This document shows, piece after piece, positions 16,772 to 58,952 of a DNA stretch of 64,000 bases. The translations under genes were made by a program, and so were the position numbers. Below the pieces are notes generated by a model. The model was not told where the DNA came from. It saw only the letters and a list, made by a program, of their open reading frames with translations, and did not search any database. Each line of letters starts with the position of its first letter. Positions within the stretch are counted from its first letter, which is position 1. Origin of the DNA: Haliotis asinina (Eukaryota; Mollusca; Gastropoda; Lepetellida; Haliotidae); contig NC_090288.1 in NCBI RefSeq assembly GCF_037392515.1, forward strand, positions 18,322,969-18,386,968, written 5' to 3'.

Positions 16772-17311
16772 GTTTAGTTAGTTAGATTTCATCATCTGAG
16801 CTCCCCACCCACCTCGGAGTATCACAAGGACAGTGCTAAACGCAAGTGGGTCTCCGACTTGCAGCACCAAGGATACTCAGATGATATACTCTAGCGGAAG
16901 AATTATGAATAACTAATCCACCAGATTGGCCCATGAGCCACCGCCTTCTGGGCATAAGACTCTAGGCAAAATTCAAGTACAAATTATCATATTACAAAAT
17001 CCAAATAATGCCACTGTAATAATAAGGCCAAGTCCGAAAATCAAACAATTCCAAATAAAATTTGTGCATTGACATATATATAGTCCATACACAGGGCTTG
17101 GCATGACCAGCCGATTGGTTGAACCGGGCCCATTCAACCACCCGTCTAGGTGAAGTAAGGGTCGAAGGGGTATGTTGGGCAAAGGGAACACGATTGCAGG
17201 CCCCCAGTGCCCTCAACCCCCAGACTCCCGTCCTCCACCGACACAGGGCCGCAACCCACGGCAAACGGGTTGGTGGACCAAATATCCCCCCGGGTCCACA
17301 ACGGGGGTGTC

Positions 17312-17369
17312 GGCGAGCTCTTGGCGTTACCCAGCACCCACCACGAGGAGGTGGCTCGCCACGGGTGCC
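17312..17369 (-). ncRNA. HDV-like self-cleaving ribozyme at the 5' end of LINE A
   Basis: Identical over 58 nt to the copy described at 52824-52881, where pairings are given. The element begins exactly at nucleotide 1 of the ribozyme (17369), next to the target duplication. Confidence 0.8.
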
Positions 17370-17431
17370 CCTACCATAAAGACTTGTTCCAAGGACAATA
17401 ACGCTTTATGCACTAGATGTGTTGAACAAAT

Positions 17432-21335: not shown

Positions 21336-21892
21336 GTGAGTGAGTGAGTTAATATTTAACGTCACATCGGCAATATTGCAGCCATATCGTGACGAGAGCA
21401 TTTAATGAGTAATTAGGATAATACAAATGAATTAATAGCACTTACATTGTAAAATCCTGTCGACGAAGGACAGTAAAACTAACTAGAATATCACAGAGTA
21501 GAATGTAAAACTAGTGAATAGACCTAAAACAATGCATCTATAGAGGACAGTACAATATAAAAATGAGCTATAGGTTGCCAACAACTGAAGGTAGATCACC
21601 ATACTAGGGACCATGGGGACTTACAGTACATTTGCTTCCTGCATGGACCCTAGTTGGATTTACACCATCCCCTCAGCTGTTAGCAATTGTAGACAAATCT
21701 AGCCATAAACTAAAAACACACTTATTCTACGATTAAAAAGATGGAAAACTGAAATTTACTTCAAATGTTTTTGGACTTATGTACCCTCTCAGGAGGACAA
21801 TAATTTTACGGTACTTCAACCCCCTTTGAGGGTACAGCCACGAACGATTTGAGTTTCTAATTTAATCTTCCAATTTTAAAATATTTATCTAT

Positions 21893-25582: not shown

Positions 25583-26814
25583 GGCGCCTCAATTGGTGAT
25601 CTCTCTCGTGAATGTGAGGAGGATAAGCTTCTCCGCCTATCTTGTGAGGATGGAGTTACCTCCATAGCCAGAGGTCCAAATGAGTTTTCAAGAGGAACCT
25701 CTGGAACTGTGGGGACAACAGGTAGTTTATCCCTATTAATCTTTTTTCCTTTCTTCTTTTTAGATTTATCGATGGCTGGTTGCAAAACAGTCTTTTGAGA
25801 TGATGACTCGGATTCAGTTTCATCAGTCTGAGAACCAGATGTAGAATGAATAACAGTGGCAGTAGGTATAGTGGCTGAAACTGAAGAGATAGGTGTTGCC
25901 GTCTTGACCCAAGACAAGTCAGTCTGAGATGCAGTAGAGGACACTACCACAGAGCAGTTCACTGCCGTAGCGTAGGTAATGTTTGAAGGAGTAGAGGTTT
26001 GATTTAGCATTTTTTTGGCATCCATGTATGAGACATTTTTCTCGCATTTAAGTTTCATAATCTGAGACTCACGCTGGAACACAGGGCACGATTTTGAAGA
26101 AGCGGGATGTGCACCATTACAGTTTGCACACTTGTAATCTTTCTTGCAGTCAGACCCGTCATGACTATCGCCACAACGATAACATACGACAGAGTTCCGG
26201 CAAGAATTTGAGCCATGTCCAAAATGCTGACATTTGTAACATCGCAGTGGACTTGGGATATACACATCCACTCCGATATTGAAATAACCTGCTTTGATAG
26301 ATGTTGGAAGTGAAGAGCGGGAAAAGGTCAAGAGATAGGTGTTAGTTTTTGTAACAATGCCGTCGTTCTTAAAGGTGAACCGTTTCACTGCTGAAACTCC
26401 CTGATCTTGTAGCTCTAAAGCAATGTCCTCTTCAGACATATCAGCAAGGCAACGTGCCCTGTCACGAATAATGCCACGGCATGAGTTTAATGTTTTATGT
26501 ATAGAAACACGAACCTCTACATTTGCAAATGTTTTGATGGATAACAAATTTAGAGACTGTTGTTTCCGTAAACATTCCACCAAAAGTGAGCCACTACGGA
26601 GACGAATAACATTTTTCACCTCACCACAAATACCAGATATAGCCTTTGAAACGGCAAAAGGGTTGAGTTTGAGAGGAAGAAAATCCGCAGCTTCTATCAC
26701 AAGAAACCGAGCCCATGAATCTATATTTTTCTGAATTTGCTCTGTGGGGTGATCTATTTCGTCAAGACGTCTTTTCTTTTCATGACGAGATGAACCAGCT
26801 TGTTGTTGAGCCAT
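25579..26814 (-). CDS. LINE B ORF1: gag-like RNA-binding protein with three zinc knuckles
   Basis: 411 aa from MAQQQAGSSRHEKKRR at 26814. The frame is open further upstream to 26883, but this ATG aligns with the starts in the other copies. Residues about 30-80 (FLVIEAADFLPLKLNPFAVS...LLVEC) resemble an RRM-type fold. Knuckles follow: CYKCQHFGHGSNSC (C-x2-C-x4-H-x4-C), CYRCGDSHDGSDC and CANCNGAHPASSKSC. The C-terminal third is Ser/Thr-rich with a Lys-rich stretch (KSKKKKGKK) and ends RSPIEAP. Its role is packaging element RNA for retrotransposition, by family analogy. The TGA stop overlaps the ORF2 start. Confidence 0.9.
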   Translation of the reverse strand: MAQQQAGSSRHEKKRRLDEIDHPTEQIQKNIDSWARFLVIEAADFLPLKLNPFAVSKAISGICGEVKNVIRLRSGSLLVECLRKQQSLNLLSIKTFANVEVRVSIHKTLNSCRGIIRDRARCLADMSEEDIALELQDQGVSAVKRFTFKNDGIVTKTNTYLLTFSRSSLPTSIKAGYFNIGVDVYIPSPLRCYKCQHFGHGSNSCRNSVVCYRCGDSHDGSDCKKDYKCANCNGAHPASSKSCPVFQRESQIMKLKCEKNVSYMDAKKMLNQTSTPSNITYATAVNCSVVVSSTASQTDLSWVKTATPISSVSATIPTATVIHSTSGSQTDETESESSSQKTVLQPAIDKSKKKKGKKINRDKLPVVPTVPEVPLENSFGPLAMEVTPSSQDRRRSLSSSHSRERSPIEAP

Positions 26815-27430
26815 GATGAAAAGAAAATAATTCAGCATCCTTGCTCCCCACCCACCATGGAGTGTCAACAAGGACGGTGTCAAATAGCATCGGATATCCT
26901 AGATGCCGACACCAGGGATACAGGGATGCTATACTCTAGTGAGTAGGACACAAATAGCAACATTTGTATACCATATTAAATGCCAGGGTGGTTCTGCCCG
27001 TGACAAGAAATTGGACACATGTTGAATCTGGAGGTCAACGTCACCAGATTGGCCCATGAGCCACCGCCTTCTGGCACGGGACTCTAGGCAATGTAATTAT
27101 ATTACAGAGTAGAACACACAAACGTAAAGTTATCAATAATTTAAACATTGCAAATAAAAAATGTCCAAGACCCAAATGATAATGTACTGTGCAAATATAA
27201 TCACCATGCACAGGGCTTGGCGTGACCAGCCGATTGGTCGAACCGGGCCCATTCGACCACCCGTCTAGGTGAAGTCAGGGCCAAAGTGGTGTGTTAGGCA
27301 ATAGCAACACGGTTCCAGGCCCCTATTGCCCTCAACCACCAGGATCCCCTCCTCCACCGACACAGGGCCGCAACCCACGGCTAACGGGTTGGTGGACCAA
27401 ATATACCCCCGGGTCCACAACGGGGGTGTT

Positions 27431-27488
27431 GGCGAGCTCTTGGCGTTACCCAGCACCCACCACGAGGAGGTGGCTCGCCACGGGTGCC
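27431..27488 (-). ncRNA. HDV-like self-cleaving ribozyme at the 5' end of LINE B
   Basis: Same 58-nt sequence as in the other three LINEs (pairings given for 52824-52881). The element starts at ribozyme nucleotide 1 (27488). Confidence 0.8.
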
Positions 27489-27501
27489 ATCATCAGTTTG
27501 A

Positions 27502-33444: not shown

Positions 33445-33979
33445 TGAGTGAGTGAGTGAGTTAGTATTTAACGTCACATCGGCAATGTCTCAGCCATATC
33501 GTGACGAGAACATTTAATACTGAAATGAAATACATGTATTGTATAAAAACCTGTCAGCGAAGGACAGTAAAACAACTAGAATATCACAAATGAGATTAAA
33601 ACTAATGTGGAAAGTTTAAAACTAATATCACTATTCGGACAATACAGTATAAAATCAGGCTATAGGTTGCCAGCAACTGAAGGTAGATCACCATACTAGG
33701 GACCATGGGGACTTACAGTGCCTTTGCTACCTGCATGGAGCCTAGTCGGATTTACATCATCCCCTCAGCTGTTAGCAATTTTGACATATCTAGCCAAAAA
33801 TTAAAAATACAGATATACTACGACTAAGAACAGTGGAAAGTTTAAATTTACTGTGAATGTTTTTGGACTTACGTACCCTCTCAAGAGGACAATAATTTTA
33901 CAATACTTCAACCCCCTTTGAGGGTACAGCCACCAACAATTCAAGTTACAAATCCAAACTTCCAATAATTAAAATACAT

Positions 33980-34867
33980 CTATTTACACAGCATAATTTC
34001 AAAATTCAACCAAAAAATCAATTTCTTTTGAAAATCAATAATTGAATGAGACCTAACGCTGGTAAAAAGATCCTTAATTGTTTTAACTGTAAAATACTTA
34101 TCCCTTGTGATGGAGAATTCAACACAGTCAAGCAGGAAATGCTTGACTGTAACTCTCTCATCACAAGGGATACAAAATGGAGGATCCTCACCTTTTAAAA
34201 GGTATGAATGAGTATATCTAGTATGGCCAATACGACATCGTCTTAAAATAACCTCTTCAAATCTGGACTGACAACCCAAGTAGGTGTAACCAATATACGG
34301 TTTTATTTCATGTAATTTATTGATACCTACGTGGGTGTCCCACTTCTTCTGCATCAGACCACGGATATAAGATCTAATGGTGGCTTTGTAATCACTGTAA
34401 GGAATAAGAAGTGGTGTCACAGATTTGTTGAGTGCTGCCTTGCGTTACCAGAAATGCCTACGTGGCTTGGTAACCAACAGAAGACGATGTCGTACTGGCC
34501 AGTAGCAAGATTATTATACAATTCAATTATTTCAATTAAAAGTGGATGTTTACATGATACATTTTAATAGCTTGAAGGCAAGAAAGAGAATCAGAATAGA
34601 TTATATATTGATTACGTTTAGGGTGTCTTTGAATATATTTTAGAGCTGTTAATATGGCGTTAGCTTCAGCTGTAAAAATAGAACTATTATCTGGTAACCT
34701 AGAACATATTGTTCTGGATCCAATGACGGTGGCACAAGCGACTGCGCCACCGTCCTTGGACCCATCTGTGAATAAGGATTTATAATTGCTATATTTATGT
34801 TTCAATTGATTATATTCTTGTTTATACTGTAATTCATTCGTTTCTGATTTTTTAAGTGATGTTAATG
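33980..34867 (-). pseudogene. LINE D ORF2, 3' part: RNase H and C-terminal domain
   Basis: Two open pieces, 34805-34536 (SLFTDGSKDGGAVACATVIG, AEAN, YSDSLS) and 34420-33980 (GHTRYTHSYLLKGEDPPFC, CIPCDERVTVKHFLLDC), are separated by a frame change and an internal deletion that removes the last RNase H Asp block (MADLAAK). At the 5' side homology stops exactly at 34867, the base before the TTA duplicated by the CACTA insertion. It continues at 41084. Confidence 0.9.
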
Positions 34868-34870
34868 TTA

Positions 34871-35230
34871 CACAGCAAAAATAACCTGGTTTCCGCAGTG
34901 CGGAAACCTGATGGAAAGTGGACTGAAACTTAAGTTTCCACCAAGAATCCAGTGAGTTTCCGTTCTTTTACACTGAGTTTCCGCAATGACGGAAACTGTC
35001 AATTACCCACTTTCTAAGGGTTTCCGCACGGTATCCGTTACCCATGCTCCAACAAGTTTCCGTTGAGTTTCAGTTAAGTTAGAGATCCATCAGGTTTCCG
35101 CAGGGTTTCAGTCACCAAGACTCCATCAGGTTTCCGCAGAGTTTCAGTTACCAAGACTCCATCAAGTTTCCGCAGAGTTTCTGTTGCCAGAAAACTTTCC
35201 ACAGCATTTCATTTACTCGGGTTCACAGGA
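34871..35230. repeat. Left subterminal repeats of CACTA-like element 1
   Basis: Repeated CATCAGGTTTCCGCAGGGTTTCAGT-like units and inverted CGGAAAC motifs. Mirrored at 40790-41083. This motif array is the usual binding region for the element's own DNA-binding protein in CACTA elements. Confidence 0.8.
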
Positions 35231-35804
35231 GTCATTCAATGTGTGTCACTGCATATAACATTCTTGTTACTCCTGGTTGGCAAAGACAATATAAGGAGTT
35301 TGTGTACAATCATCACGTATACATAAAGAAAAACAAAAGATACAATAAGATTCACTGTTTTATTTTCAGACAAATATGGATCAAACATATATCTAATAAA
35401 TAATAAAAAGATATAGCACTAGATAACAGATCAATATTTGTCACTTATGACAAAAATATTTCTAAAAACATGCTAGAACAGTTGCATCCCTTGACTCCTC
35501 CTGCACCTCCTCACGCTGACACAGAAAAACACACCCCAGTCAGTCAATGCTAAACATATAATAACACACACCATGCAATACAATACAACAATGAAATAAA
35601 ATGCAATAAAGAACTTAGGTTACATTGAAAGTACAAAAAATGTATTTAAAGTAAATAAAGGTCTCTTGGAAAATAGATAAAAATTAAGATTGAATAAAAT
35701 TGTATTAATTGAAATACAATCAGAATATCAAAACTATTAAAGTTTTACATTGAGAATAATTCAAATTTAATTGATCACAGATAAAATTAAGTTCATGTGA
35801 TCGA

Positions 35805-38404
35805 TTAGCTATTTACTAGCCCACTTGGGCATCCTTGAGCGGATATCTCTGTCATTGTGGTTGGATGCCGCATCCTGGTCTTCATGTTGGCCTTAGCTTT
35901 GGTGGTGGCGTTGAAAATTGTGGCTGAGTCCAGTGCAGACATCTTGAGTTTAGATTCCCAGGTAAAGGGGTAAGAGAGCAATGAATTGGCATCTTCTTCA
36001 TCACTCACAACTGGTGAAGTCATTTCCAAGGTAAGTATAGTTGAAACCCTTTCCTTTCGTCGATCTGGCCAGTCAATAATTTATAGGCTTTTCATGCGCA
36101 GTGCAATTTTCTGAAAATTAAACAAAAATCAATCAACAGATAAAGCATAATGCCAAGATGGATTGCAAATTATTAAAAAGGAAGTGTCGTGAAAAATTAT
36201 TTACTTCATTAATCACCCCAACACAAGTTAAGCAGTTCATCACATTTAATGACATATCCTATTTTCTTATGGACACACAATCTGTTGCTCTGAAGTGACA
36301 TGAAGTCACTGAAGTGTAATAACATGTTTATATATCACCATTAACTGACTTGATTCTTATGTTATGATTTACGAAATTATGATCTGAATCATGTGTTACA
36401 TGTCTTAAGAATGTAAAAAGCAATAATCCATAAACATTTTAAATGTATATTTCCGGAACTTAGAATCTGTCACACATTGTAATGAGAAGAATTGTTACAT
36501 GTTATTATTCGAATAGATATACTTACGGATTTCATTCTTTTTGTTTTTGTTTTTTTGCTGCTGTTCTGTGTGACACTTTCTTTCCGGTTTCTTGTCTATT
36601 GAGATCATCACGCCTGTTCCGCCACACTCTACAAAGCGCTTCTGAAAATAAATGTTTAAAGTACTATACAGCATGTTTCACACATTTTAGTTCATCTGTT
36701 AGGCAAAGGTATTTATATATGCCATGCTGGCTTGGTTACTGAAGTTAGCATCCATAAATCTGTCTTTACACTATTATTTAAATCATTAACTATCTATAAT
36801 GACAGGCAGGTGAGTGAAAATTACCTTCACAAGATCCTATTGACCATCCTTGGTCGTCATATATATATATAGTCACTTGTTTCTTTGACTACTATATTCA
36901 TAGAGTCCTCGTCATCGGCTTTACTGAAATAAAAACAAATGTCATTTTTCTTGCACTTCATTCAATCATGCATTCAACACAATGTCTATTAAAATTAACG
37001 ATCGTCAGTGAAAATTATACAACCAAGTAAACTGCAGATTTATAACTTTGAATACATATATTGTTCTGAAAGTTTACCATTTTGTAGTTAAATGATTTAA
37101 AATAACTTCCAAAAAGGCTAACCATCCTTTGTGTTATTTCGTGCAAATTCTATGTACATCCTGTTTGCCAAAGTTATGCAACCGGTAAGTGAACAACTGA
37201 CATAAAGATCATGATAAAAGAAGTTTAGTTATATCACATGACATAACCTTGCAGCAATTAAGCATTGTAAAATCAAGGGGTCAGTTTGATGGCAATTTCA
37301 CACAGGTGTAATGTTAAACTGATTTAGTTTACCGGCTATTCAAATCCATTTGCAAATGATACTTTCATGTATTTTTCATTTTGAGAAAACGTACGTAGGG
37401 AAGTGAATTAATGAAATATTCAAAGTGAAATTACCTAGTAACATGAGCACATACCTTCGATAGACAAGGGTGATCCTCCAGGAGCAGTCGTGTCCAGATT
37501 TTTCTCACAACAGCCTAAAAGATTAAATCAAATACGTTAAATATAACAGATATATATATATGATTATGCTCAACACGTATGTATTACATTATTGAAAAAT
37601 TACATGAAATTTTAAATGTATCCTACGCAGAGCTAACAGTTTCTTATATGAATTTAGTGTTTGCCTCAAATAGTTCAGAAACACATGTGACCCCTCTGAG
37701 CGAATTTGGGGGTAAACAATTTCATTTCACTAATGATCCAGGATTGCATTTAATAAATTACACCGAAATGTTGCCATTGTAAAAGCCCATCATTTTTATC
37801 ATTCTTTAAAATATATCTGAATTGGTGAAATACATCTTGCAATACCCAGTAAACCCATGAGTGAACCACTACATATGGCGGATCTTTTTGATGCAGATCG
37901 TAATTCATCACCCCCCCCACACACACACCCCCACCCCCCCACACACACCTTTTGTACAAGTGTTAACCGAGTTGCAACGCTAAAATTTGCAAACTATTAA
38001 CAGGAGCACTAAAATCAAAAGTCTGCCGCTTTAAACTTAAATAAATACTTGTGGTTAGTACTAAGATAGTTACTTACAAATACAAGCTTGGTGTATTCTA
38101 TACCATGTCGATCTATTGAAATGGAATATAAACAAACTTATTTTTCAGGCCTATTTTACTTAGATTTAACGATAACATTTGAAAATAATACGAGCGAAAA
38201 TATACATTCGCGGGATAAACATTATAATCTATCCGGATTTCTGTCATTAACGCAATATTTCTTTAAACGTTTTTTACAATAAAATACCCTCGGTCTTACC
38301 CGACACATCCGAGGTACTCCGAGTTGCTCGCATCCGTTCTCTGCTTTCTTCTCCAAGTCGCGAATTCTTTCGTCGAGTGCTTTTGGGGAAAGTGAGGTGG
38401 CCAT
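35805..38404 (-). pseudogene. Spliced gene remnant on the left side of CACTA-like element 1 (function unknown)
   Basis: Five exon-like blocks on the minus strand: 38404-38300 (MATSLSPKALDERIRDLEKK..., short coiled coil), 37514-37455 (AVVRKIWTRLLLEDHPCLSK, phase 0 junction with exon 1), 36923-36835 (DDEDSMNIVVKE...DDQGWSIGSCE), 36641-36537 (ALCRVWRNRRDDLNRQE) and 36110-35805 (IIDWPDRRKERV... to a TAG). Exon 3 begins with an in-frame TAA after a phase-0 junction and is frameshifted inside a TA run. Exon 5 has a TAA just before IIDWP. The gene is therefore decayed although splice sites remain. The related remnant in CACTA element 2 shares the start and the IDWP end. Not recognised: accessory transposon gene or captured host gene. 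Confidence 0.5.
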
Positions 38405-39765
38405 GGCAAAGTTTACACGACGCAGCCATCTTATGCTTAAAGTTTTGAAAAATAATTGCTAGGAAAACAAATTTGTTCCTACCCGCCAAACAAGATGGCG
38501 TCTCGCTAACACTCACGGGAAATAGACAGTTTTGTCATTGTGTTTTTTTAAATAAATCTAATGTGACCATTTGACAGTAGATTTCCTCGTTCTACAACAA
38601 AAGAGGAAGGTATACCCTGTTGTGAGTTGTTTTGTTAACAATGAGATAGTCTCGCGTGGACGTGATCCTGTCGCCATTCGTTTATTTGTTTACATTGCCG
38701 ACATCAAAGGGGAGTGTGAAAAGTGGAATTCAGCGGATTGAATGTAAGTACTCAAAGTGACAACAGTGAGCAGTTATGGTTTTAGCAGTCTTTTCATCGC
38801 ATTAGCGTCACTGATTGCTTTTTCTCAGTGTCAAGCATCAATATGTAGACCTTGTGATTATTAACAGTGATTAATTGTGAAAACATGTTCACCTTAGTTT
38901 AACATGTCCGAGCGTCATGAGTCCTACTGATTTAGCACTCATGGGAAACTTTATTGTGGCAAATAAGTTATTTTCTAAAATCCTGTCAGGAGAAGGTAGT
39001 ATCCGGATATATTTCTGCTGGATGGACCCCCCACCCCCTCCACCACGTACCATGTAAGTAATTTACGCACTGTGCTCACAACATGCACGGGGGTTAGAAA
39101 TATTAACATTATTTGTTCTTTTCAGGTATACGCCCAGATCTACTATCCCTATCTACCCTTTAAGTTAACTTTACTACTATTACTAATATAATTTGGAGAT
39201 GTGTCACAATTTCTTTGAAACCTTAATTCATTTGTCAATGTGAATGAAGAATGAAGCACAATCCCACTGACCCTTTGGCTATGATTTGTACATGCATAAT
39301 TTCTGTAGACTATTCGTGGCACTTTCTGCTGCAGGGACACAGTTCTTTGTGGACATTGCGACAAGTAATTGTCAAGAAAAACAGCCTAAAATCACGAGAA
39401 ATACGTTTCTGAAATATGGTTGGTTTCTACAGTATTTGTTTTAACATGGGTACCCAGAGATATTCCGCATATATGTCTTCGTTATATCTATTCATATAAT
39501 CTGTACTCCAGAAATATTTCAACCAAGTCACATCATACATTTATTAGTTCATCAAATTATCTAGTATCTTATGTTCTGTGTCAGTTCTGTGTATCCAGTT
39601 GTACCAGTTAATCAGTTTCATGGTTTGATATTTGTTTTATAACCATTAAAACCTTGTCCATCAGTACATGTTGCATGTGTTAGCCCTACAATGCATTGAC
39701 ATTATCATCACACCTCAAGTTTCATATTTCTGAAAGAATCGTTGTGTCAGTTATTTGATTTACAG
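38405..39765. other. Bidirectional centre of CACTA-like element 1
   Basis: Between the two divergent gene remnants. Probable non-coding plus-strand 5' exons end at about 38749 (GATTGAAT|GTAAGTAC) and 39054 (ACCAT|GTAAGTAA). It likely held the divergent promoters, but no TATA box is obvious. Confidence 0.4.
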
Positions 39766-40580
39766 ATATGGATTGTGGACCAACAAACTCGGAGAATGAT
39801 GCCCGGTAAGGGAATCTCTTTTATAACAATATTATTCATATAGCTTTATAATGAAGCTGACACTATGTTAATACATACAACAAACCTTTTTGACCTCACT
39901 CAAAGTGTAACTGTACATGGATTCAAGCATAATATATACATATATTTTAAATTCCAGGAGAAATACGGCTTTTCTGTCCTCACTGCCAGACGTCTTTTTC
40001 AAGAAAAACACGTTATCTCCATCTCCGTAACAAGATGTTTGTTAGTTTGTAAAGATTTTTCGGGTGAATGACAAATGTTTCATCAGGTTAGTCATCAAAG
40101 AATTTTTAGATTTCACTAAAAATCGAGTTTGCACTGTCACTTTGCTATCCATGTTTAATATATTTAATGTATGTATCATACATGTAACTGTAATAACTGA
40201 AAGTGAGCAAATGGTAATACGTATTTAATATTTGTAATACATGTTATCTGCATTATCATATATATTGCTGTGTTTCATTCATTGAATTGTCTCTCAGTTG
40301 AATTGATGATTCAAACTGAATGTCCTTTTCCTTTCCAGACACTGACACTGACCAAGATATTAACAGCACATTCAAGGTTTGCGAGCTATTACCACCACAA
40401 TGTGAGAGCCTGATTGATTCGGATTCAGATGTTTCGCCAGATATTAACCAGGACTCGCATACACCAACAAACATCTACAGAAGAACAAAGCACTTTGTGT
40501 ACTGGCTAGCTCGTCTTCATTCAGTGTGCCTACTTCCTGAGCAATGCTTGTGTGCAGAGAATTCTGTTACTCTTCTCTGA
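39766..40580 (+). pseudogene. N-terminal fragment of a CACTA transposase (zinc finger plus acidic region)
   Basis: Three exons join in frame: 39766-39805 (ATG at 39796, MMPG), 39958-40026 (EIRLFCPHCQTSFSRKTRYLHL) and 40339-40580 (TDTDQDINSTFKVCELLPPQ ... LIDSDSDVSPD ... ending VTLL and a stop). Acceptors are TACAG, TTCCAG and TTCCAG; donors are GTAAGG, GTAACA. The CPHC...HL pattern followed by a Ser/Asp-rich stretch and a short hydrophobic helix (FVYWLARLHSVCLL) is how I remember the N-termini of animal EnSpm/CACTA transposases. The following catalytic domain is missing, so the product would be about 115 aa. It might act as a repressor or end-binding protein. Confidence 0.55.
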
Positions 40581-40789
40581 GCGCCCCAGTTTCTTAATAC
40601 AGCGAATTGTGTACTACTGCAACTGCCCTGTTGCATTAAAATGTGAGCTTTTCTAAGAAATGAAACAGTTGGATCATAATATTTCCAGCGTTTGTTTTTT
40701 GTTCAAATAAATATGTAATAAATATAACAAGATAATACAACATATTTCAGCTTTCTAAACTAAGCGAACTCTCATTGTCATCTTCCTTG

Positions 40790-41083
40790 TACAGAAACCT
40801 AGCGGAAACCTACATTACCCAAGATCCACAAGGTTTCCGCAAGACCAGAAACTTACTCACTCCAGCTATAAAGGTTTCAGTAAACTGAAACTAAATGGAA
40901 ACTTCCAACTACAGTTTCAGTTGACGGAAACATGACGGAAACTAAGACTTGTTAGTTTCAGTTGTGGAAACTATGCGGAAACTCTCATTGCGCGTTTCCT
41001 GAAACTGAAACCTAGCGGAAACCTACATTACCCAGTATCCATCAGGTTTCCGCAAGAACGGAAACCAAGTTATTTTTGCTGTG
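40790..41083. repeat. Right subterminal repeats of CACTA-like element 1
   Basis: Dense AAACCTAGCGGAAACCTACATTACCCA-like units (two near-identical copies at about 40797 and 41007) and other GGAAAC/GTTTCC motifs, ending in the terminal inverted repeat. Confidence 0.8.
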
Positions 41084-43881
41084 TTAGGTCAACTTGTGGC
41101 CTAACCAACTGCCAAGGAGGAGAAGAAAGAAGACGGGAAGGAGCTATATGGTTCAGCTCAATGCTGGAAGCAGCAAGAAATGGCTTAATTCTGAGCCCAA
41201 AAGGCGGAACAAGGGAAGACTTTTTGTTGTACAAATCCTCATAGAGAGGATTAAAAACACAATTAAATGCGGGGTTAGACTCATTAGAAGCTAATTTTGT
41301 AATGTATTGTAAAGATAGTTTGATACGACGTAAGTTGAGAGAAGGCTCATCAGCTTCGACGTATAGACTGTCGATAGGAGAGGTTCTAAAAGAACCAAGA
41401 CAAAGTCTTAGGCCTTGGTGGTGAACAGGATCAAGTAGTTTTAGGTTGCTTTGACAAGCGCCACCATATACGATGGAGCCGTAATCAAGTTCGGATCAGT
41501 GATCTATATAAGTGAAGAAGGGTAGATTGATCCCCTCCCCATTTTGAATTTGAAACAACCTTTAATAAATCGAGTGCCTTCAGGCATTTGGCTTTAAGGA
41601 ATTTAATATGTGGCAGAAAGGTCAAATGTGAGTCGAAAATAAGTCCCAAGAACTTGGCCTCCTTGACGACTTTGATGGTGGTACCACTGAGAAATAACTC
41701 TGGTTCTTTATGGGGTTTGTATTTACGACAGAAGTTTATACAATTGGTTTTTGATTTAGAAAATTTAAAACTGTCTTAAAGACACCACTTATCAATTTTG
41801 TTTAAACACAGCTGCAGTTGCCGTTCAATAGTATGCATATTCTTACCGCGGCAAGAAATATTAAAATCATCCACAAATAAAGATCCATCTATTAAATCGT
41901 TTAAAACTTTAGATAAACTGTTGATCTTGACGCTAAAAAGAGTGACTGACAAAATACTGCCTTGTGGAACACTCTGATCCTGATTATAATGATCAGACAG
42001 GGTAGAACCCACGCGGACTTGAAATTGCCTGTTATTTAAAAAATTTAGCAATGAATTCAGGCAAACGACCTCGCAAACCGAAATCATGTAAATCTCTCAG
42101 TATGCCATATTTCCAGGTTGTGTCATATGCTTTTTCAAGATCAAAAAAGATAGACACAGCATGTTGTTTATTAATGAGTGCGTTTTTCACAAATGATTCC
42201 AGTCGCACTAAGTGATCGACAGTACTTCTGTTTTTACGGAAAACAGAAACATTGTATATCTGTGATAAGATTATTTGTTTCCAAGTACCAAACAAGTCGA
42301 TTATTTATCATGCGTTCCATGGTCTTGCAAACACAGCTAGTTAGTGAAATAGGTCGATAATTGGACGGATCCGTATGATCACGTCCAGGTTTAGGTATTG
42401 GTACTACTATGGCGTCACGCCATGAAGGAGGAAAGTTACCCGATGTCCAAATATCATCAAAAATATTGAGAAGAGTTTCAAGGCAGGATTCCGGTAAGTG
42501 CTTCAGGAGTTGATAATGTATGTTATCAGCTCCAGTAGCAGTGTCATGAGCTTGATCAAGAGCAGTATAGAGTTCATGAATAGAAAACGTTTCATTATAA
42601 TCTTCCCCATTATCAGAATTGAAATTAATAGTTTTCTTTTCTTGTTGTTTTTGATACTGCTGAAATTTTGGTACATGATTTGAAGAGGAAGAGTGTTTAG
42701 AAAGGGTTTCACCCAGTTTATTCGCAATATCTGATTTATCAGTAAGTAATTGATCTCCATGTTTAAGATGATGGACAGTAGATTTAGTACCTTTACCTTT
42801 GATTTTCTGGACCATGTTCCATACCTTGGACATGGGTGTCCGAGAATTTATTTTAGATACATAATTTTGCCAAGATTGGCGTTTGTTTTGTTTGAAAGTA
42901 CGCCGTGCTTTAGCATTTAAAATTTTAATTATAATTATGCACCATAGGATGGCGACGGAAATAATGTTCTGCCTTTTTCCTTGCATTCCTAGCTTGTTTG
43001 CACTCATCGTTGAACCATGGTTTTCTTATGTGTGGAACTACAGAGGACTTTGGTATACACTCATCAGCTATGGAATTCAGTTCATCAGAAAAAGATTTAA
43101 TAGCATCAGGAACGTCAATAAAACGTTCTGGTTTTAGTTTTTCAGCACACAGTGTTTCATATAAAGCCCAGTTAGCCTTTTTAAAATTTCGTCTTGATGA
43201 TGGAGGAACATCAGATGGAGTTACAGCTTTTAATATAGTAGGAAAATGGTCACTTCCACAGAGGTCATCGTGGACTGACCATTCGAATTCATTTAATAGT
43301 TCGGAATTTGTCAATGACAAGTCGAGAGCAGAATAAGTCCCTGTACCAGGGTGTAAATATGTGTTGGAACCATCATTATAAATACATAAGTCATTGTCAG
43401 AACAAAAGTCCTCCAACAATTTACCTCTAGTGTTTGTATTTACACCACCCCAGAGTGGGTTGTGCCCATTTAAATCTCCCATTATAATACAGGGCTTCGG
43501 GAGCTGATCATATAGGGCTTGAAGATCGGTTTTGGCAAAAGCCGAAGATGGTAAAATATAAAGAGAGCATAGCGTAAACGCTACATGTAAAGTAATTCTC
43601 ACAGCAACAGCCTGCATATTAGTATTAAGTGAAACATGGTTTTGATTAACGTTTTGTTTGACTAGAATGGATGATCCGCCAGTGGCCCGATCACCCGGAG
43701 GTGAAAAACAATGATATGCATTAAAATGACGAAGGTCAAATGTATCTGTTTGTTTTAAATATGTCTCCTGGAGACAAATCGCTGAAGGTGTAAAATCTTG
43801 GACTAATAGCTGTAATTCATGTAAATTTGTCCTCAATCCTCTGCAGTTCCACTGTACAATATTATTGGAATAAACTATCTT
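41084..43881 (-). pseudogene. LINE D ORF2, 5' part: endonuclease and reverse transcriptase (multiply frameshifted)
   Basis: Endonuclease motifs (IVQWNCRG, QETYLKQTD, GDLNGHNPLWGG, GSDHFP) are open from 43881 to about 42935. Frame breaks then occur near 42930 (HNYN in place of HNLNKFKI), near 42240 (extra bases after FRKN-coding sequence), near 42045 and near 41776. The reverse transcriptase still shows FDLEKAYDTTW and FVDDF. Unlike LINE A, motif A is retained. No ATG precedes the endonuclease in this subfamily. The ORF is entered from ORF1 without a stop because of the change at 43882-43884. Confidence 0.9.
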
Positions 43882-45149
43882 TTGGGTGGATTTATTGGGG
43901 GATCTACCCCGCACTCTTTTGGAGGGCGACAAGCTATGTGCCCTAGAATGGACGTTTTCAGAAACGTACATATCTTCAAGAGACCCATATTTATTGTACA
44001 ATTGAATTTTATTTTGTGACCCCTTAGGAGCTCTGCTACTGTGTTCTTTTAAAGCATCAGGCCTTGGCTCCGGTTTACTTTTCACTGTTTGATCAGATGT
44101 TGATTGAGACCTTGAATGTGACTGAGATGATGATGATTTGTGATCAGAAGACGACTTTGAGGTACTAGGGAGTGGTTCCTCAGTCTGTGATGATATAGCA
44201 GGGTACAAAAGCTGTGGAGAATCGCAGTTGACCCAAGTCAAGGTAGTTTGGCAGCCTGTGGATGATTTTGTTATTTTGGAGCGTGACTCCAATGTTGTTT
44301 TTGCCACCGCAGCATAACTTTCTGGAAGATCAGATCTTTTTACTATATTTTTGGCCTCAGAAAAAGAGATATTTTGAGTGAATTTGATTTTATTTATTTC
44401 CATTTGTTCTTTCCAAACAGGACATTGTTTAGAAAATGAGTAATGGTCGCCTGAGCAGTTGGTGCATTTTTTGAAGTCACTAGTACAATCTTCTGTTGTG
44501 TGTGTCTTCTCACCACAGTGGGCACACACAACGGACAATGTACAAGTATTTACACCATGGCCGTACTTCTGACATTTAAAACATCTCAGCGGGTTCGGAA
44601 TGTACACGTCAACCTTGATGTTGCAGTAACCAGCCTTCAATGATTTTGGAGCTGTCGGAGATGAAAAGGAGAACAGATAAGTATTGGTTGGAACACTTTC
44701 ATTGTTCTTACGGACTGAAAAGCGTTTGACGTCGAGCACACCTTGATCTTTCATTTCAGTCATGGTGTCAAGTTCTGTCATGTCAGAAAACAACCGATCA
44801 CGGTCTCTGATGATCCCTTTGCTCGTGTTTAACGTCTTGTGAGCAGATACAGTAACCGGAATTCCAACAAACGATTCTATGCTCATCAAATTGACTGACT
44901 GCTGCCGTTTCCCACACTCAACCTGCAGTGCACCTGAACGTAACCGTTTAATGCTCTTAACTTCCCCGGCAATACCTTGAATACCTTTGGCAACTGCGAA
45001 CGGGTTCAATTTTAGAGGCGTTTTATCAGCAGATTCAATAACAAGAAAGCGTGGCCAAAACTCAATTGATCTGGACGGTCGAAGGTCATTATCATCAACA
45101 TCATTTTCAAGAGGACGTTTGGTTTTTTTGTGGGGATTTCATAAGCCAT
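43882..45149 (-). pseudogene. LINE D ORF1: gag-like RNA-binding protein (frameshift at start, stop codon lost)
   Basis: The original start is ATG at 45149 (MAYEIP...). One A missing from a run near 45128 shifts the frame. Homology continues in the frame opening MNPFAVAKGIQG at 45009. Knuckles CFKCQKYGHGVNTC, CAHCGEKTHTTEDC and CTNCSGDHYSFSKQC follow an RRM-like N-terminus. The Ser-rich C-terminal region is longer than in LINE B. Where LINE A has a TAA stop, this copy has CAA (43884-43882), so ORF1 runs straight into the ORF2 endonuclease in one frame. Confidence 0.85.
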
Positions 45150-45691
45150 ATTTAGTGTTGAGATTTCATCATCCGAGCTCCCCACCCACCACGGAGTATC
45201 ACAAGGACAATGCTAAAAACAAGCGGATCTCCAGCTTGCAGCACCAAGGATACCCGGATGATATACTCCAGCAGAAAAATTAAAAGATTAATAGTTCCAC
45301 CAGATTGGCCCATGAGCCACCGCCTTCTGGCATAGGACTCTAGGCAAATTTCAGAACAAAATATGTCAAAATCAAAAATGTTTTAGATAATATAGCCAAG
45401 TCCAAAGTTATAACAATTCTAAATGATATGTGTGCATTGAAAAATATAACAATACTCCATGCACAGGGCTTGGCATGACCAGCCGATTGGTCGAACCGGG
45501 CCCATTCGACCACCCGTCTAGGCGAAGTCAGGGCCAAAGTGGTGTATTGAGCAACAGGAGCACGATTGCAGGCCCGTATTGCCCTCAACCACCAGGACCC
45601 CCCCCCCCCCCCCTCCGCCGACACAGGGCCGCAACCCACGGTAAACGGGTTGGTGGACCAAATATCCCCCCGGGTCCACTACGGGGGTGTT

Positions 45692-45749
45692 GGCGAGCTC
45701 TTGGCGTTACCCAGCACCCACCACGAGGAGGTGGCTCGCCACGGGTGCC
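45692..45749 (-). ncRNA. HDV-like self-cleaving ribozyme at the 5' end of LINE D
   Basis: Identical to the 58-nt element at the start of LINEs A, B and E. Nucleotide 1 is at 45749, directly abutting the target duplication. Confidence 0.8.
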
Positions 45750-45880
45750 GCTCATCATGAGACTCAAGTCCGATTCTCCACATGGGTACAATGTTTGAAG
45801 CTCATTTCTGGTGTTCCCCATTGTGATAGTGATGGAATATTGCTGAAAGTGAAGTAAAACCACACTCACTCTTTCAGCAG
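45750..45880 (+). repeat. tRNA-derived SINE, 3' part with B box and CTCA tail
   Basis: Resumes the SINE of 33405-33444 after LINE D: GACTCAAGTCCGATTCTCC (B box), then ATGGAATATTGCTGAAAGTG and AAAACCACACTCACTC at the 3' end. The reconstructed SINE is about 160 bp. The GGAATATTGCTGA segment resembles the LINE 3' end. Confidence 0.8.
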
Positions 45881-52575: not shown

Positions 52576-52823
52576 TCTTACATTTCTCCCTCAGACCCAA
52601 ACAATACAACAAATACAAACAAAGGATTAATTACAAAACTTTATTCTGGAATGTTTGGTATGAAATATGTCAAAATAATTGTACAATGTCCACTATGTAC
52701 AAGTAAAAAGATGTCCCACGCCTCCCAATGGATCTAATAATAGTGGTATGAAACAATTTGCCCTAAACTTCACAGATTTCCACAAATACCTATCACACTG
52801 TTGAAGCCTAACTCATTAGTATG

Positions 52824-52881
52824 GGCACCCGTGGCGAGCCACCTCCTCGTGGTGGGTGCTGGGTAACGCCAAGAGCTCGCC
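52824..52881 (+). ncRNA. HDV-like self-cleaving ribozyme at the 5' end of LINE E
   Basis: The 58 nt can be folded in the HDV double-pseudoknot order. P1 pairs nt 1-7 (GGCACCC) with 31-37 (GGGUGCU). P2 pairs 10-16 (GGCGAGC) with 52-58 (GCUCGCC), seven Watson-Crick pairs. P3 pairs 18-20 (ACC) with 28-30 (GGU). L3 is UCCUCGU, against UCCUCGC in genomic HDV. After P1 comes CUGGGUAAC, against CUGGGCAAC in HDV, so GG at 38-39 can form P1.1 with the L3 CC. CAAGA at 47-51 would be J4/2 with C47 as the catalytic cytosine. P4 is minimal or missing. All four LINEs share the sequence and start at G1. The HDV comparison is from memory of the published ribozyme. Confidence 0.85.
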
Positions 52882-53456
52882 GACACCCCCGTAGTGGACC
52901 CGGGGGGATATTTGGTCCACCAACCCGTTTGCCGTGGGTTGCGGCCCTGTGTCGGTGGAGGAAGGGATCCTGGTGGTTGAGGGTAACAGGGGACTGTGAC
53001 CGTGTTCCTGTTGCTCAACACACCACTTTGGCCCTGACTTCACCTAGACGGGTGGTTGAATGGGCCCGATTCAATCAATCGGCTGGTCACGCCATGCCCT
53101 GTGCATAGAAATTGCTTACATTTTGCACTTACATTTTTCGGGTATTGGTCATTTTAAAATCTAGTGTACAAATTATTGATACATTTACTTACCTAGAGTC
53201 CTGTGCCAGCAAGCGGTGGCTCATGGGTCAATCTGGTTATATAGACCTCTGAATTCCGTGTTCTTAGGAACAGTGTCATGGGCCGAACCAGTCTGACACT
53301 TATTCTTTAAGTTACCATGGCTTTTCAAGTCTGTATTTTCTGGAGTATGTCCTCCCTGTAACCCTGGTGTTGCAGTCTGGTTTCCACTGCGGTACCGTCC
53401 TTGTTGACACTCCATGGTGGGTGGGGGGCAGGGTTGTTGAATTACACTAATACACC
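52882..53456 (+). other. LINE E 5' UTR
   Basis: GC-rich for the first ~250 bp, then AT-richer. It contains the conserved segments CCAGATTG(G)CC / GAGCCACCGC (here rearranged as AGCGGTGGCTCATGGGTCAA) and ends in CTCCATGGTGGGTGGGG before ORF1. The first part has open frames on both strands in all four copies, including a conserved antisense ORF (53043-52816 here). Confidence 0.7.
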
Positions 53457-54725
53457 ATGGCTAAAAACGCTCATTCTGGTTCATCTAAAATGGGCAAACG
53501 TCGTCATATGTCTTCTTCATCCGATGAAGAGATATCTACTTTCACACATGATTCCTGGCCAAGGTTTTTGGTCATTGAAAGTTCTGATGGCCATCCTTTA
53601 AATACCAATCCTTTTGCCGTCTCCAAGGGCATCCAAGGTATCTGTGGAGAGGTAAAAAACGTCACACGTTTACGAAATGGTTCTCTTTTAATTGAATGTT
53701 TACGTAGGCAACAATCTGTCAATCTGCTGGGAGTAAAGCAGTTTGTAAACAGCCAGGTTGTTGTTTCTGTTCACAAAACTCTCAACAGCTGTAGAGGTAT
53801 TGTTAGAGACAGGGCACGTTGTTTGTACGATATGACAGAAGATGAGATTGTGGCAGAACTGAAAGATCAGGGAGTTACTTCTGTTAAACGTTTCAGCAGA
53901 AAACATGAATCAACTTTAGTCAAAACAAATACCTATCTTTTCACGTTTGGTCTGACAACTCTTCCAAAATTCATAAAGGCTGGGTATTGTAATATTGGAG
54001 TTGAGGTATATGTACCAAATCCACTCCGGTGTTACAAGTGTCAAAAGTTTGGACATGGTGCAAGATCTTGCACAGGTAAATCAGTATGCTCACGCTGTAG
54101 TGGAAACCATGAAGGCACTGAATGTACAAATGAGATAAAGTGTGCCAATTGCAGTGGTGAGCATATGGCATCATCGAAAACGTGTCCAAAATATGAGTAT
54201 GAGAACAAAATCTTGAAACTGAAGTGCAATAATAATATCTCATACTTCGAAGCAAAGAAACTGATTCAGGCTCAATCAAAACCAGCAACAGTTCCTACCT
54301 ATTCTGCCACAGTGTCTTCTGCTGTTCCTTCTTCTGTCAAAAAAGCTACCCTCGTTTCAACATCTTGTCAGACTGAAATATCTTGGATAAAGGATTCTCA
54401 AATAACCTTAGATGACGCCACTCACTCATCACAAGATTGTCAGTGATCATCAGCTTCACAAACTGAGTACAGTCAGCCAGGACAAATATCTGATTTTAAT
54501 TTAACTCAAGATACTCAGAGCGTTGAAAAACTCACAAATAAAGAAAAGAAAAAGTTGAGAAGAAAGACCAGAGCCCTTCAGCATTTAGAAGAGTCTTCTC
54601 ATTTAACACCTTCTGTGGCGGTTCAAAATCTGTTTGAACCGCTTGACATGGACATAACTCCGTCACAAACAGGGTGTAGGGGTAGCGCTGCCACGCGCTC
54701 ACGATCTCCAGTTGAAGCGCCCTAA
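53457..54725 (+). pseudogene. LINE E ORF1: gag-like RNA-binding protein with one premature stop
   Basis: Starts MAKNAHSGSSKMGKRR at 53457. An RRM-like region (FLVIESSDGHPLNTNPFAVS) is followed by CYKCQKFGHGARSC, CSRCSGNHEGTEC and CANCSGEHMASSKTC. TGA at 54444-54446 interrupts the frame after 329 codons. The same frame then stays open for 93 more codons to RSPVEAP and TAA at 54723-54725, matching the C-terminus of LINE B ORF1 (RSPIEAP). The single stop is therefore a recent nonsense mutation. ORF2 starts 9 bp after the TAA, whereas in LINE B the ORFs overlap. Confidence 0.9.
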
Positions 54726-54734
54726 GCAGTTTTT

Positions 54735-57700
54735 ATGGAATTAATACAATGGAATTGCAGAGGCCTCAGGAACAATTTTAATGAATTACAGTTATTATCA
54801 CAAGATTTTACACCATCAGCTTTTAGTCTGCAGGAGACGTACTTGAAAAGTACAGATCGATTTGAATTGCGTCGGTACAATTCTTTTCATGCATTCTCCC
54901 CTCCCGATGGAAAAGCCACGGGTGGTGCTTCTATACTCGTGAGGCAGGGTGTTATTCATAGTCCAGTTCCTCTTAAAACCAATCTTCAGGCTGTTGCCGT
55001 CCGTCTTACTCTTCAGATAACCTTTACGCTTTGCTCTTTGTATATTTCCCCTTCTTCAGATCTTCAGCAGTCCGTTCTTCAGAATCTATGTGACCAACTT
55101 CCCAAAACCTCTATTATTATGGGTGATCTGAACGGACATAATCCTTTGTGGGGAAGTACTAATATTAATAATAAAGGCAAAGTCATTGAAGACTTCCTTT
55201 CTAACAATAATCTATGCCTATTTAATGATGGATCAGCCACATATTTACATCCTGGAACTGGGACGTATTCTCAACTTGACTTATCACTCTCAGATCCAAA
55301 TATTTATAACGAGTTTCAATGGTCGGTCCATGATGACCTTTGTGGTAGTGACCTTTTTCCGACAATTCTCTCCGCTTTAAATCCGACTGATGACATACCT
55401 GCAACAAGGTGGAACTGGCCTTTATTTCAAACACTTTGTACAGAAAAATTGAAATCTGAATTTTTTGTAAATGTTCCTGATCCTATTCAGTTGTTCTCGG
55501 ATACACTGAATGATATCGCTGATGAAACTGTTCCCATGTCCTCTGCTAAACCTCATTGCCGCAAACCATGGTTTTCTGATGATTGTAAACAGGCAAGGAA
55601 GAGCAGGAAAAAGGCAGAGACGACATCCTACAGTTCACAATTTAAATAATGTAAAAATAAATAATGCCAAGGCTCGGCGTACTTTTAAACAAAGTAAACG
55701 TCAGTCATGGAAGACCTTTGTGTCAAAAATTAATTCACGTACGCCAATGACGAAGGTGTGGAACATGATACAGAGAATCAACGGCAAGGGTAGCAATTCT
55801 AGCGTTCATCATCTTAAAGATGGACATGATATGTTAATTGACATTGCCAACAAGTTGGGTGAAACTTTAGCTAGTCATTCTTCTTCATCAAATTATCTTC
55901 CGAAGTTTCAGAGATATAAAACTCATCAAGAAAAGTTGAAACTCAGCTTTCATTCCGAAAATGGTGAAGACTATAATGAAGTATTTTCACTGCATGAGCT
56001 GAATTCTGCCTTGGCACAAGCTCATGATACGGCAACTGGAGCAGATAATATCCACTACCAGCTCCTGAAACATTTACCCAATGCTTGTCTTGAGACACTT
56101 TTGAACATTTTTGATCATATTTGGACTACAGGACACTTTCCTCCTTCGTGGTGTCATGCCATTGTTGTACCAATACCTAAGCCTGGCCGAGACAATACAG
56201 ATCCATCTAACTATAGACCAATTTCCTTAACAAGCTGCGTTTGTAAAACTATGGAACGCATGGTCAATAATAGATTAGTATGGTTTCTAGAATCCAATCA
56301 TCTTATTTCTAACATTCAGTGTGGTTTTCGGAAATATAGAAGCACTATTGATCATTGGTTCGCCTAGAATCATTCGTTAAAAATTCCATTGTAAATAACC
56401 AGCATGCTGTGTCAATCATTTTCGACCTGGAAAAGGCCTATGATACAACATGGAAACATGGTATTTTGAGAGACTTACATGACTTTGGTTTGAGAGGCCG
56501 TTTGCCTAATTTTATATCCCAGTTCTTAGCAGGCAGACAATTTCAAGTTCGCGTTGGATCAACCCTGTCTGAACATTATAATCAGGATCACGGAGTTCCA
56601 CAAGGTAGTATTTTGTCTGTTACCTTGTTTAGTATAAAAATCAATAGTCTCTCGAAAGTATTAAATGACTCAATAGATGGGTCATTGTTTGTGGATGATT
56701 TTAACGTTTCATGTTGTGGTAAAAACATTCATACCATCGAAAGGCAACTGCAGATGTGTTTAAATAAAATTCATAAATGGTCACTTGAGAATGGCTTCAA
56801 ATTTTCACAGATAAAGACCAAATGCATACATTTCTGTCGGAAATATAAGACTCATAAAGATCCCGAACTGTTCTTGGATGGCTCTCCAATTAACGTTATA
56901 AAGGAAGCCAAGTTTCTGGGATTGATCTTCGACAAACATTTGACTTTTTTACCACATATTAAGTATCTGAAGACTAAATGCCTGAAGGCATTAGATCTAT
57001 TAAAAGTTGTGTCCAATTCAAATTGGGGAGGGGATCAAACTACACTCCTTCATTTATACAGATCTCTTATCCGATCAAAACTTGATTATGGCTCCATAGT
57101 ATATGGTGGAGCCTGCAAAAGCAACCTAAAACTATTAGATTCGATTCATCACCAAGGTCTGAGACTTTGTCTTGGATCTTTCAGAACATCTCCCATCGAC
57201 AGTATCTACGTTGAGGCCGATGAGCCATCTTTAAAACTTCGCCGTGTCAAATTATCTTTACAATATATCACAAAGTTATATTCTAATGAATCCAATCCTG
57301 CCCATAACTGCGTATTTAATCCTCTTTATGAGGAATTGTATAATAAAAGAACTTCACTTGTTCCACCTCTTGGGTTAAGAATCAAACCATTCATTTCTGC
57401 AGCTGGGATTGAGCTGGAGACTATTTCTCCTTCTCGGCTTTTTTCTTCTCCTTCTTGGCAGTTGGTGAGGCCACATGTTGACCTAACACTTACAGAGTTT
57501 AAAAAATCAGAAACTAATGAATTACAATATAAAGAAGAATTTATTCAATTAAAACATAAATATAATAAACACAAATTCCTATTTACAGATGGGTCCAAGG
57601 ATGGTGGCGCAGTAGCTTGTGCTACTGTCATTGGATCCAGAACAATCTCTTTTAGAATACCTGATTATACCTCTATTTTTACAGCAGAAGCAAACGCAAT

Positions 57701-58373
57701 ACTAACGGCTCTTAAATATATTCAAAGACATCCTGCACATAAACAGTATATAATCTTTTCTGACTCTCTTTCTTGTCTTCAGGCTATTAAAAATCTATCT
57801 TGTAAACATCCACTTTTAATACAAATTATTGAGTTATATAATGATCTTGCTACTGGCCAATATGACATCGTCTTTTGTTGGTTACCCAGCCACGTGGGCA
57901 TTTCTGAGAACACAATGGCCGATTTTGCTGCTAAGGCAGGACTCAATAAATCAGTGACACCACTCCTTATTCCATACTCAGATTACAAAGCAAACATTAA
58001 AACTTACATCCGTGATCTGATGCAAAAGAAGTGGGACGCCCAGGTGGTTATCAATAAATTGCATGAAATGAAACCGTATATTGGTTATACCTACTTGGGA
58101 TGTCAGTCCAGATTTGAGGAGGTCGTTATGCGACGATGTCGTATTGGCCATACGCGGTATACACACGAATATTTACTTAAAGGTGAGGATCCTCCGTTTT
58201 GTATCCCTTGTGATGAAGCAATCACGGTCAAGCATATTCTGCTTGACTGTATTGATTTTGCCATCACAAGGGAGAAATATTTTACTGTCAACACAATGAA
58301 GGATCTTTTTAATGTTAATTATCATTTAATTATTGAATTTTTAAAGGAAATAGAATTATTAGATAAATTCTGA
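54735..58373 (+). pseudogene. LINE E ORF2: endonuclease, reverse transcriptase, RNase H (two frameshifts)
   Basis: Three frames cover the protein: 54735-about 55620 (MELIQWNCRG, QETYLKST, GDLNGHNPLWGS, GSDLFP), about 55620-56355, and about 56357-58373. The first break is a ~10-bp deletion after KKAE relative to LINE B. The second is a one-base loss in the codons for DHLVRLE. About ten codons near RNFKKAN are also deleted in frame. The SDH catalytic triplet of the endonuclease reads SDL here. The reverse transcriptase has FDLEKAYDTTW and FVDDF. RNase H has FTDGSKDGG, AEAN and FSDSLS. The C-terminus has CIPCDEAITVKHILLDC. Otherwise well preserved. Confidence 0.9.
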
Positions 58374-58939
58374 ATAATATGTTTTGTAAATAGAAAGCTG
58401 ATATCTTAAACATGGTAGTGTGAATTGTCAACTGCGATTGTTAGTGGCCGTACCCTCAAAGGGGGTTAAAGCAGCGTAAAATTATTGTCCCCCTGAAAGG
58501 GTGCTTAAGTCCAGAAACTTTCAAAGTGAAATTTAAGCTTACCAGTATTTTAAACGTAGTATTTTTGTCATTTTAAATTTCGGCTACATTTTCCTACAAT
58601 CGCCAGCAGCTGAGGGGATGATGTAAATCCAGCTAGGGGCCATGCAGGTTGCTAAAGTAACGTAAGTCCCCATGGTTCCTAGTATGGTGATCTACCTTCA
58701 GTTGTTGGTGATCTATAGGCTACTTTTATATTATGTATTGTCCAAATTGTGCTGTAGTTTTAACTTCATATGCTAGTTTTAGACTCGAATTGTGATACTC
58801 TAGTTATTTTACCGTACTTTGATGACGGGTTTTATAATATCTACATGTTCTGTATAATCATGCTTATTCTCGTCACGATATGGCTGAAATATTGCCGATG
58901 TGACGTTAAATTATAACTCACTCACTCACTCACTCACTC
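58374..58939 (+). other. LINE E 3' UTR and CTCA tail
   Basis: Contains GTACCCTCAAAGGGGGTTAA, CCATGCAGG...CTAAAG and CCATGGTTCCTAGTATGGTG, which also occur inverted in LINEs A, B and D. It ends CGTCACGATATGGCTGAAAT, ATTGCCGATGTGACGTTAAA and a (CTCA)n run. The last ~55 bp is the part shared with SINE 3' ends. Confidence 0.8.
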
Positions 58940-58952
58940 ACTCATTAGTATG

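Follow-up and report, generated by a model that had tools for sequence, protein, structure and literature searches.

A P4-less HDV-like ribozyme, predicted to self-cleave, at the 5' end of an abundant RNase H-encoding LINE family of abalone

In a stretch of Haliotis asinina DNA of 64 kb (hereafter the window) we found four copies of a LINE, named A, B, D and E, which begin with the same 58 nt. Computation gives good support for the view that at the start of the LINE these 58 nt form an RNA with the HDV fold, predicted to be self-cleaving. We consider it very likely that a self-cleaving HDV-like ribozyme without P4 forms the exact 5' end of this LINE family, which encodes APE, RT and RNase H, as an earlier note on this DNA had proposed from the letters of the window.

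The window copies are bounded by target-site duplications (TSDs) of 13, 12, 13 and 12 nt in E, D, B and A respectively, and in all four the upstream TSD ends exactly at G1, the first nucleotide of the 58, as claimed before (Table 1). The 5' boundary is unambiguous in these copies because a base other than G follows the 3' TSD copy in each. The elements terminate in (ACTC)n; the first bases of the 3' TSD copy of E are tail-like, and its start is therefore uncertain. ORF2 has domains over the Pfam cut-off for APE (PF14529/PF03372), RT (PF00078) and RNase H (PF00075), and in ORF1 CCHC knuckles are visible with a Pfam score below the cut-off. This combination of APE, RT and RNase H in ORF2 with a CCHC ORF1 is that of an APE-type LINE with RNase H (I superfamily). 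The insertion that splits LINE D lies at about 34870-41081, with the 3' part of the element beyond it at 34870-33435. It has inverted termini (CACAGCAAAAATAAC ... GTTATTTTTGCTGTG) and TAA on both flanks, which suggests a Harbinger-like DNA transposon or a derivative of one. The window also holds a repeat some 370 bases long, which recurs at several sites in either orientation (28718-29769, 49355-50621 and 8921-9242), and a 30-base tandem repeat (5803-6215) within an open frame of 276 codons (5432-6262).

Table 1. Features of the LINE copies and of the predicted ribozyme, in window coordinates (nt, position within the 58 nt)
Feature	Position	Strand	Remarks
LINE copy A	11391..17369, lower end approximate	-	Repeat and TSD comparison
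LINE copy B	21336..27488	-	
LINE copy B, ORF1	26898-25579	-	CCHC-like knuckles
LINE copy B, ORF2	25588-21893	-	APE-RT-RNase H
LINE copy D	33445..45749	-	Interrupted by an insertion (about 6.2 kb)
LINE copy E	52824..58939	+	About 6.1 kb, (ACTC)n tail
Upstream TSD of E	52811..52823	+	ACTCATTAGTATG, adjoins G1; 3' copy 58940-58952
Upstream TSD of D	45750..45761	-	CTCATGATGAGC; 3' copy 33433-33444
Upstream TSD of B	27489..27501	-	TCAAACTGATGAT; 3' copy 21323-21335
Upstream TSD of A	17370..17381	-	CTTTATGGTAGG; 3' copy 11379-11390
Predicted HDV-like ribozyme, 58 nt	52824..52881	+	5' end of LINE E, G1 = 52824
Identical 58 nt, 5' end of LINE D	45692..45749	-	Identity and descriptor
Identical 58 nt, 5' end of LINE B	27431..27488	-	Identity and descriptor
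Identical 58 nt, 5' end of LINE A	17312..17369	-	Identity and descriptor
P1 5' strand GGCACCC	nt 1-7, 52824..52830	+	Pairs with 52854-52860
P1 3' strand GGGTGCT	nt 31-37, 52854..52860	+	7 bp
P2 5' strand GGCGAGC	nt 10-16, 52833..52839	+	Pairs with 52875-52881, covariation
P2 3' strand GCTCGCC	nt 52-58, 52875..52881	+	7 bp, covariation
P3 stem and L3	52841..52853	+	3 bp, 52841-52843 (nt 18-20) with 52851-52853 (nt 28-30)
L3 UCCUCGU	nt 21-27, 52844-52850	+	Rfam alignment, descriptor
GG after P1	nt 38-39, 52861..52862	+	Can pair with C52845-C52846 of L3 (P1.1), predicted from sequence
J4/2 CCAAGA	nt 46-51, 52869..52874	+	Proposed catalytic C46 = 52869; polymorphic N47 = 52870

No mismatch occurs in nt 1-58 among A, B, D and E, which bears out the identity first reported for them. 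In the alignment of the four copies 0 of 58 columns are variable in nt 1-58 versus 58 of 244 in nt 59-290 (12 of the 58 being gap columns; Fisher p = 1.3e-6), and the drop in conservation past nt 58 is gradual, since over nt 59-116 just 5 of the 58 columns are variable. The HDV order that had been described (P1, P2 and P3, L3 and the GG) is present, and all four copies have a nested double pseudoknot, G1 in P1, P2, P3, a G after P1 and a J4/2 of the form C-N-R-A. P1 closes at its cleavage end with a G1.U37 wobble, and between P1.1 and J4/2 all four copies have GGGTAACGC and no P4. The earlier note had proposed searches with a structure descriptor and with Infernal against Rfam. A strict HDV descriptor gave four matches in the 64-kb window, all at the LINE starts and none elsewhere, and none in 10 mononucleotide shuffles or in the reversed window sequence; since it was composed after the sequence had been seen, this is a check of specificity and no independent discovery. 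The minimum-energy fold without pseudoknots is an alternative hairpin with a stability not above that of shuffles (z = -0.30), and folding energy therefore does not decide. CM R1 recovers the four window copies, but it was built from those copies and this is no evidence.

The Rfam search pointed to the same fold at low scores. A scan of the whole window gave nothing at gathering level; with a 161-nt stretch and E values up to 10 there were four matches, the best three of which were to HDV families, all of them below gathering: RF02682 (HDV-F-prausnitzii; E 0.016, 22.7 bits versus a gathering score of 44), RF00094 (E 0.11, 23.2 bits versus 50) and RF01787 (E 0.58, 15.8 bits versus 37; a partial match). 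The 3' half of the RF00094 match falls beyond the proposed P2. RF02682 has the best E-value, and P1, P3, L3 and J4/2 align with it, although the score lies below gathering. This alignment sets GC-C-AAG over GC-U-AAG and thereby puts the catalytic-C position at C46; in HDV ribozymes the C at this position is the general acid. The base originally named as catalytic was C47, and here the proposal has to be corrected. Position 47 is a common C/T polymorphism, with 39 C and 31 T in 70 fetched copies, sampled with a pattern that required C at 46 and either C or T at 47. A count in a fixed 32-nt context, free of that requirement, found 219 copies with C46 that carry A or G at 47, and 71 copies with a base other than C at 46. 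Because position 47 varies, the catalytic cytosine is most likely C46, judging from the aligned sequences, and mutating C47, as had been suggested, would hit a variable site.

Junctions beyond the window were then compared in 26 copies, comprising 20 E-type copies drawn from the 39 further scored matches, two copies with other versions of P2 and the four window copies. A TSD of 12-14 nt adjoins G1 in 20 of the 26; in two (L013 and L025) there are 1-2 extra nucleotides between TSD and G1, which could be non-templated additions or mutations, and for four (L024, L028, L029 and L108) no convincing TSD was found within the stretch examined. In the genomic DNA search, the alignment of each of the 40 scored matches opens at query base 1; as the E-type copies came from a similarity-ranked search, short 5' truncations are under-represented among them. 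The 25 nt upstream of G1 are unrelated at 54 loci. Their highest columns are -13 (0.65 bits), -12 (0.45) and -9 (0.35), all of which fall within the TSD, with -13 and -12 at its edge. Conserved sequence upstream of G1, which would have spoken against the proposal, was thus absent from the 54 loci. These results show that the LINE copies start at G1, in agreement with the claim that the 58 nt are the exact end of the element.

We searched the 1.14-Gb assembly with the core pattern TCCTCGNGGN{7,11}GGGNAACN{0,25}GCYAAG, which gave 3,326 matches, and none with a reversed control. Among the 100 matches listed of the 3,326 none has an insert at the place of P4, though the pattern allowed 0-25 nt there. 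Covariation was examined in the first 70 of these 100 matches, all on one chromosome-scale contig, together with the four window copies. The resulting alignment is gapless and has 74 rows, 32 of them distinct; segmental duplicates with common flanks are present among the 70 (L090-L103), and identical rows were counted once. L3, the GG and GCYAAG were held constant by the sampling pattern and lie outside the test. Three versions of P2 were found: GGCGAGC/GCTCGCC (43 of 70, clean), GAAGAGC/GCTCTTC (13 of 70) and GAACGGC/GCCGTTC (one of 70, plus one with a G.U pair), the remaining 12 being base-changed variants of the three. Two-sided changes are present in 4 of the 7 P2 pairs, in 24 cells over the 32 distinct rows; a cell is a sequence and not an event, and two or three switches between P2 versions might be enough to account for the 24. 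None of 500 shuffles reached 24 cells, and slid registers reached at most 9. Two further measures gave weaker results. As many as 4 pairs with a two-sided change arose in 43 of 500 shuffles when the whole structure was scored and in 19 of 500 when P2 was scored by itself; for the count of further pair types the figures were 197 and 118 of 500, respectively. The nested hairpin that competes with this fold shows no two-sided change, and 10 of the 32 distinct rows break one of its pairs. A search for a fourth version of P2 gave 73 matches, and the five that were fetched looked like decayed forms with G.U pairs or mismatches. The covariation shows that P2, the long-range helix in the double pseudoknot, is under constraint at the level of RNA, and it adds to the case for the HDV order. 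On the same assembly we observed eight ribozyme cores at an exact spacing of 2,655 bases (G000:C1:38718116-38736733), where a unit derived from the LINE is repeated in tandem.

The alignment does not contradict P1 and P3, but lends them no covariation support. In the 74 rows (32 distinct) P1 has no two-sided change, its strands being GGCACCC in 66 and GGGTGCT in 65 of the 70, and when the genome was searched for cores in which the first four bases of the P1 3' strand are all altered, there was no match. The ribozyme core is nearly unchanged despite the divergence of the proteins in the copies compared with B: their ORF1 proteins are 45-55% identical to that of B where the match is longer (29-55% when every piece is counted), and ORF2 identity among the compared copies is 64-90% by piece. 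It is possible, although we hold the idea only tentatively and think it rather doubtful, that the sequence of P1 and the loops, and not only the pairing, is kept constant across lineages while P2 covaries. In that case these 40-odd nt would have a second function that depends on their sequence, as a core promoter or as a binding site of the LINE's own proteins for handling of the 5' end. The 58 nt would then be an animal counterpart of the trypanosome Pr77, possibly from a common RNase-H LINE ancestor. At one locus (L058, G000:C1 about 2381760-2382500) the ribozyme is joined to the LINE 3' end in an internally deleted element of about 0.75 kb, which is probably non-autonomous and resembles the internally deleted relatives of L1Tc and R2; L057 and L059 are apparently internally deleted too.

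The mechanism that we favour would run as follows. Transcripts would begin upstream of G1, or at an internal promoter reaching upstream, and the RNA would be cut 5' of G1 through general-acid catalysis by C46. The product would be a LINE RNA with a 5'-OH, the reverse transcript of which would end at G1, and each full new copy would thereby regain the whole ribozyme. By analogy with what has been proposed for R2 and L1Tc, the folded RNA may after cleavage also aid translation or protein binding.

Other explanations of the conserved 5' end have to be weighed against this one. The 58 nt might be kept mainly as an internal promoter at the DNA level, like Pr77 of L1Tc, with the ribozyme fold secondary or vestigial. 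The frozen first 58 nt, the nearly frozen next 58 and the divergent remainder would fit such a promoter, as would a P1 that shows no covariation where a pure ribozyme would leave it free to covary, and Pr77 itself is both promoter and ribozyme (PMC4035085). However, a promoter does not predict that the two strands of P2, separated by 35 nt, should vary in concert, as they do in the three versions. The core also fits the HDV descriptor, and we regard this explanation as very unlikely. The three P2 versions with their pairing kept argue in the same way against a recent homogenisation, by swapping of 5' ends between LINE lineages, in which the identity would reflect no function and the likeness to HDV would be chance. 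Although copies with ORF1 proteins as distant from that of B as the longer matches above have a common 5' end, and segmental duplicates do exist (L090-L103), the descriptor found nothing in shuffles and the core pattern found 3,326 matches against none in its control, and we hold this explanation to be extremely improbable.

Somewhat less remote, but still unlikely, is an HDV-like ribozyme that acts mainly after transcription, in protecting the 5' end, in the start of translation or in handling of the template 5' end, the LINE 5' ends being set by transcription starting at G1. The ribozymes of R2 and L1Tc have been proposed to aid translation (PMC8256844), and nothing decisive speaks against this alternative, as the junction of G1 with the TSD and the unrelated flanks fit cleavage and choice of start site equally well. 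It overlaps with the self-cleaving 5' end that we prefer, and the odds of the two are not additive.

Several parts of this picture have precedents. HDV-like ribozymes are named in PMC3774820 for R2, R4, Dong, Baggins, RTE and L1Tc. L1Tc is a LINE with APE, RT and RNase H, and its Pr77 is both a promoter and an HDV-like ribozyme (PMC4035085). The 5' ends of the trypanosomatid L1Tc/ingi elements (L1TcRz/Pr77) are thus alike in joining an HDV-like ribozyme to an APE-RT-RNase H LINE, and their short, internally deleted relatives retain the ribozyme as here; L1TcRz has a P4 and trypanosomatid hosts, whereas the ribozyme of the abalone LINE is without P4. The RNase H that the earlier note attributed to the element is indeed present in ORF2, but its pairing with an HDV-like ribozyme, which had been thought a notable addition, was known from L1Tc. 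Similarly, the lack of P4 holds for all four copies but is no novelty, since ribozymes without it are described for silkmoth R2 and abalone (PMC3774820) and as minimal or theta ribozymes (PMC10879173). The last of these (drz-Mtgn-1 and those of gut phages) share the P4-less HDV fold in a phage and tRNA context without a LINE. R2 of animals also has an HDV-like ribozyme at its 5' end and is rDNA-specific. According to PMC3774820, Drosophila R2 junctions are often irregular, whereas here, of 22 copies whose TSD is clear, 20 join exactly at G1, and P1 of fruit-fly R2 has compensatory differences, in contrast to the frozen P1 of the abalone LINE.

The nearest precedent is an HDV-like ribozyme of the abalone Haliotis discus (Webb and Luptak 2011, RNA Biol 8:719, as cited in PMC3774820). 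By that citing description it is likewise HDV-like with P4 replaced by 5 nt, and it is probably from the same host genus; the ribozyme of this LINE may be the one already reported from abalone. Nimbus and Ingi elements both occur in gastropods according to PMC11203168, in the main text of which the word ribozyme is absent. A title and abstract search of the open-licence literature (Nimb, mollusc, Haliotis, abalone) found no paper on this LINE with an HDV-like ribozyme, though one could be in print elsewhere. The new part may be the abundant LINE family carrying the ribozyme, together with its frozen P1.

Searches outside the genome gave no relatives of the LINE proteins in viral contigs. One IMG/VR contig (L001) has a 20-nt core match without the rest of the ribozyme and without an Rfam match, and this was put down to chance. 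Eight loci (L060-L067) on contigs labelled as bacterial MAG or gill symbiont encode relatives of the LINE proteins and are probably animal DNA in bacterial assemblies. The strict descriptor found no ribozyme in these eight loci, and neither did a relaxed descriptor on the plus strand of the upstream parts of six of them; two weak matches of CM R1 in L065 (E 3.5 and 5.6) were taken as chance. Most of these loci have little DNA ahead of ORF2 and may lack the 5' end of the element; they say nothing about the distribution of the ribozyme. A separate observation from the abalone genome is a cluster of sperm-lysin (PF01303) exons (G000:C14, about 26671878-26918244), with six matches in this genome and none in 14 control genomes. 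For the one exon tested the best solved relatives are sperm lysins (3lyn, E 3.9e-11), which are abalone proteins, and the cluster points to Haliotis or a close vetigastropod as the probable host.

The analysis links an HDV-like ribozyme that has no P4 with a very abundant family of RNase-H LINEs. The thousands of copies of the core, with mostly uniform 5' junctions, are a large natural set of mutations for studying the way in which cleavage sets the 5' ends of LINEs. Should a second function be what keeps P1 frozen, this would suggest that combined promoter-ribozyme 5' ends extend beyond the trypanosomatids.
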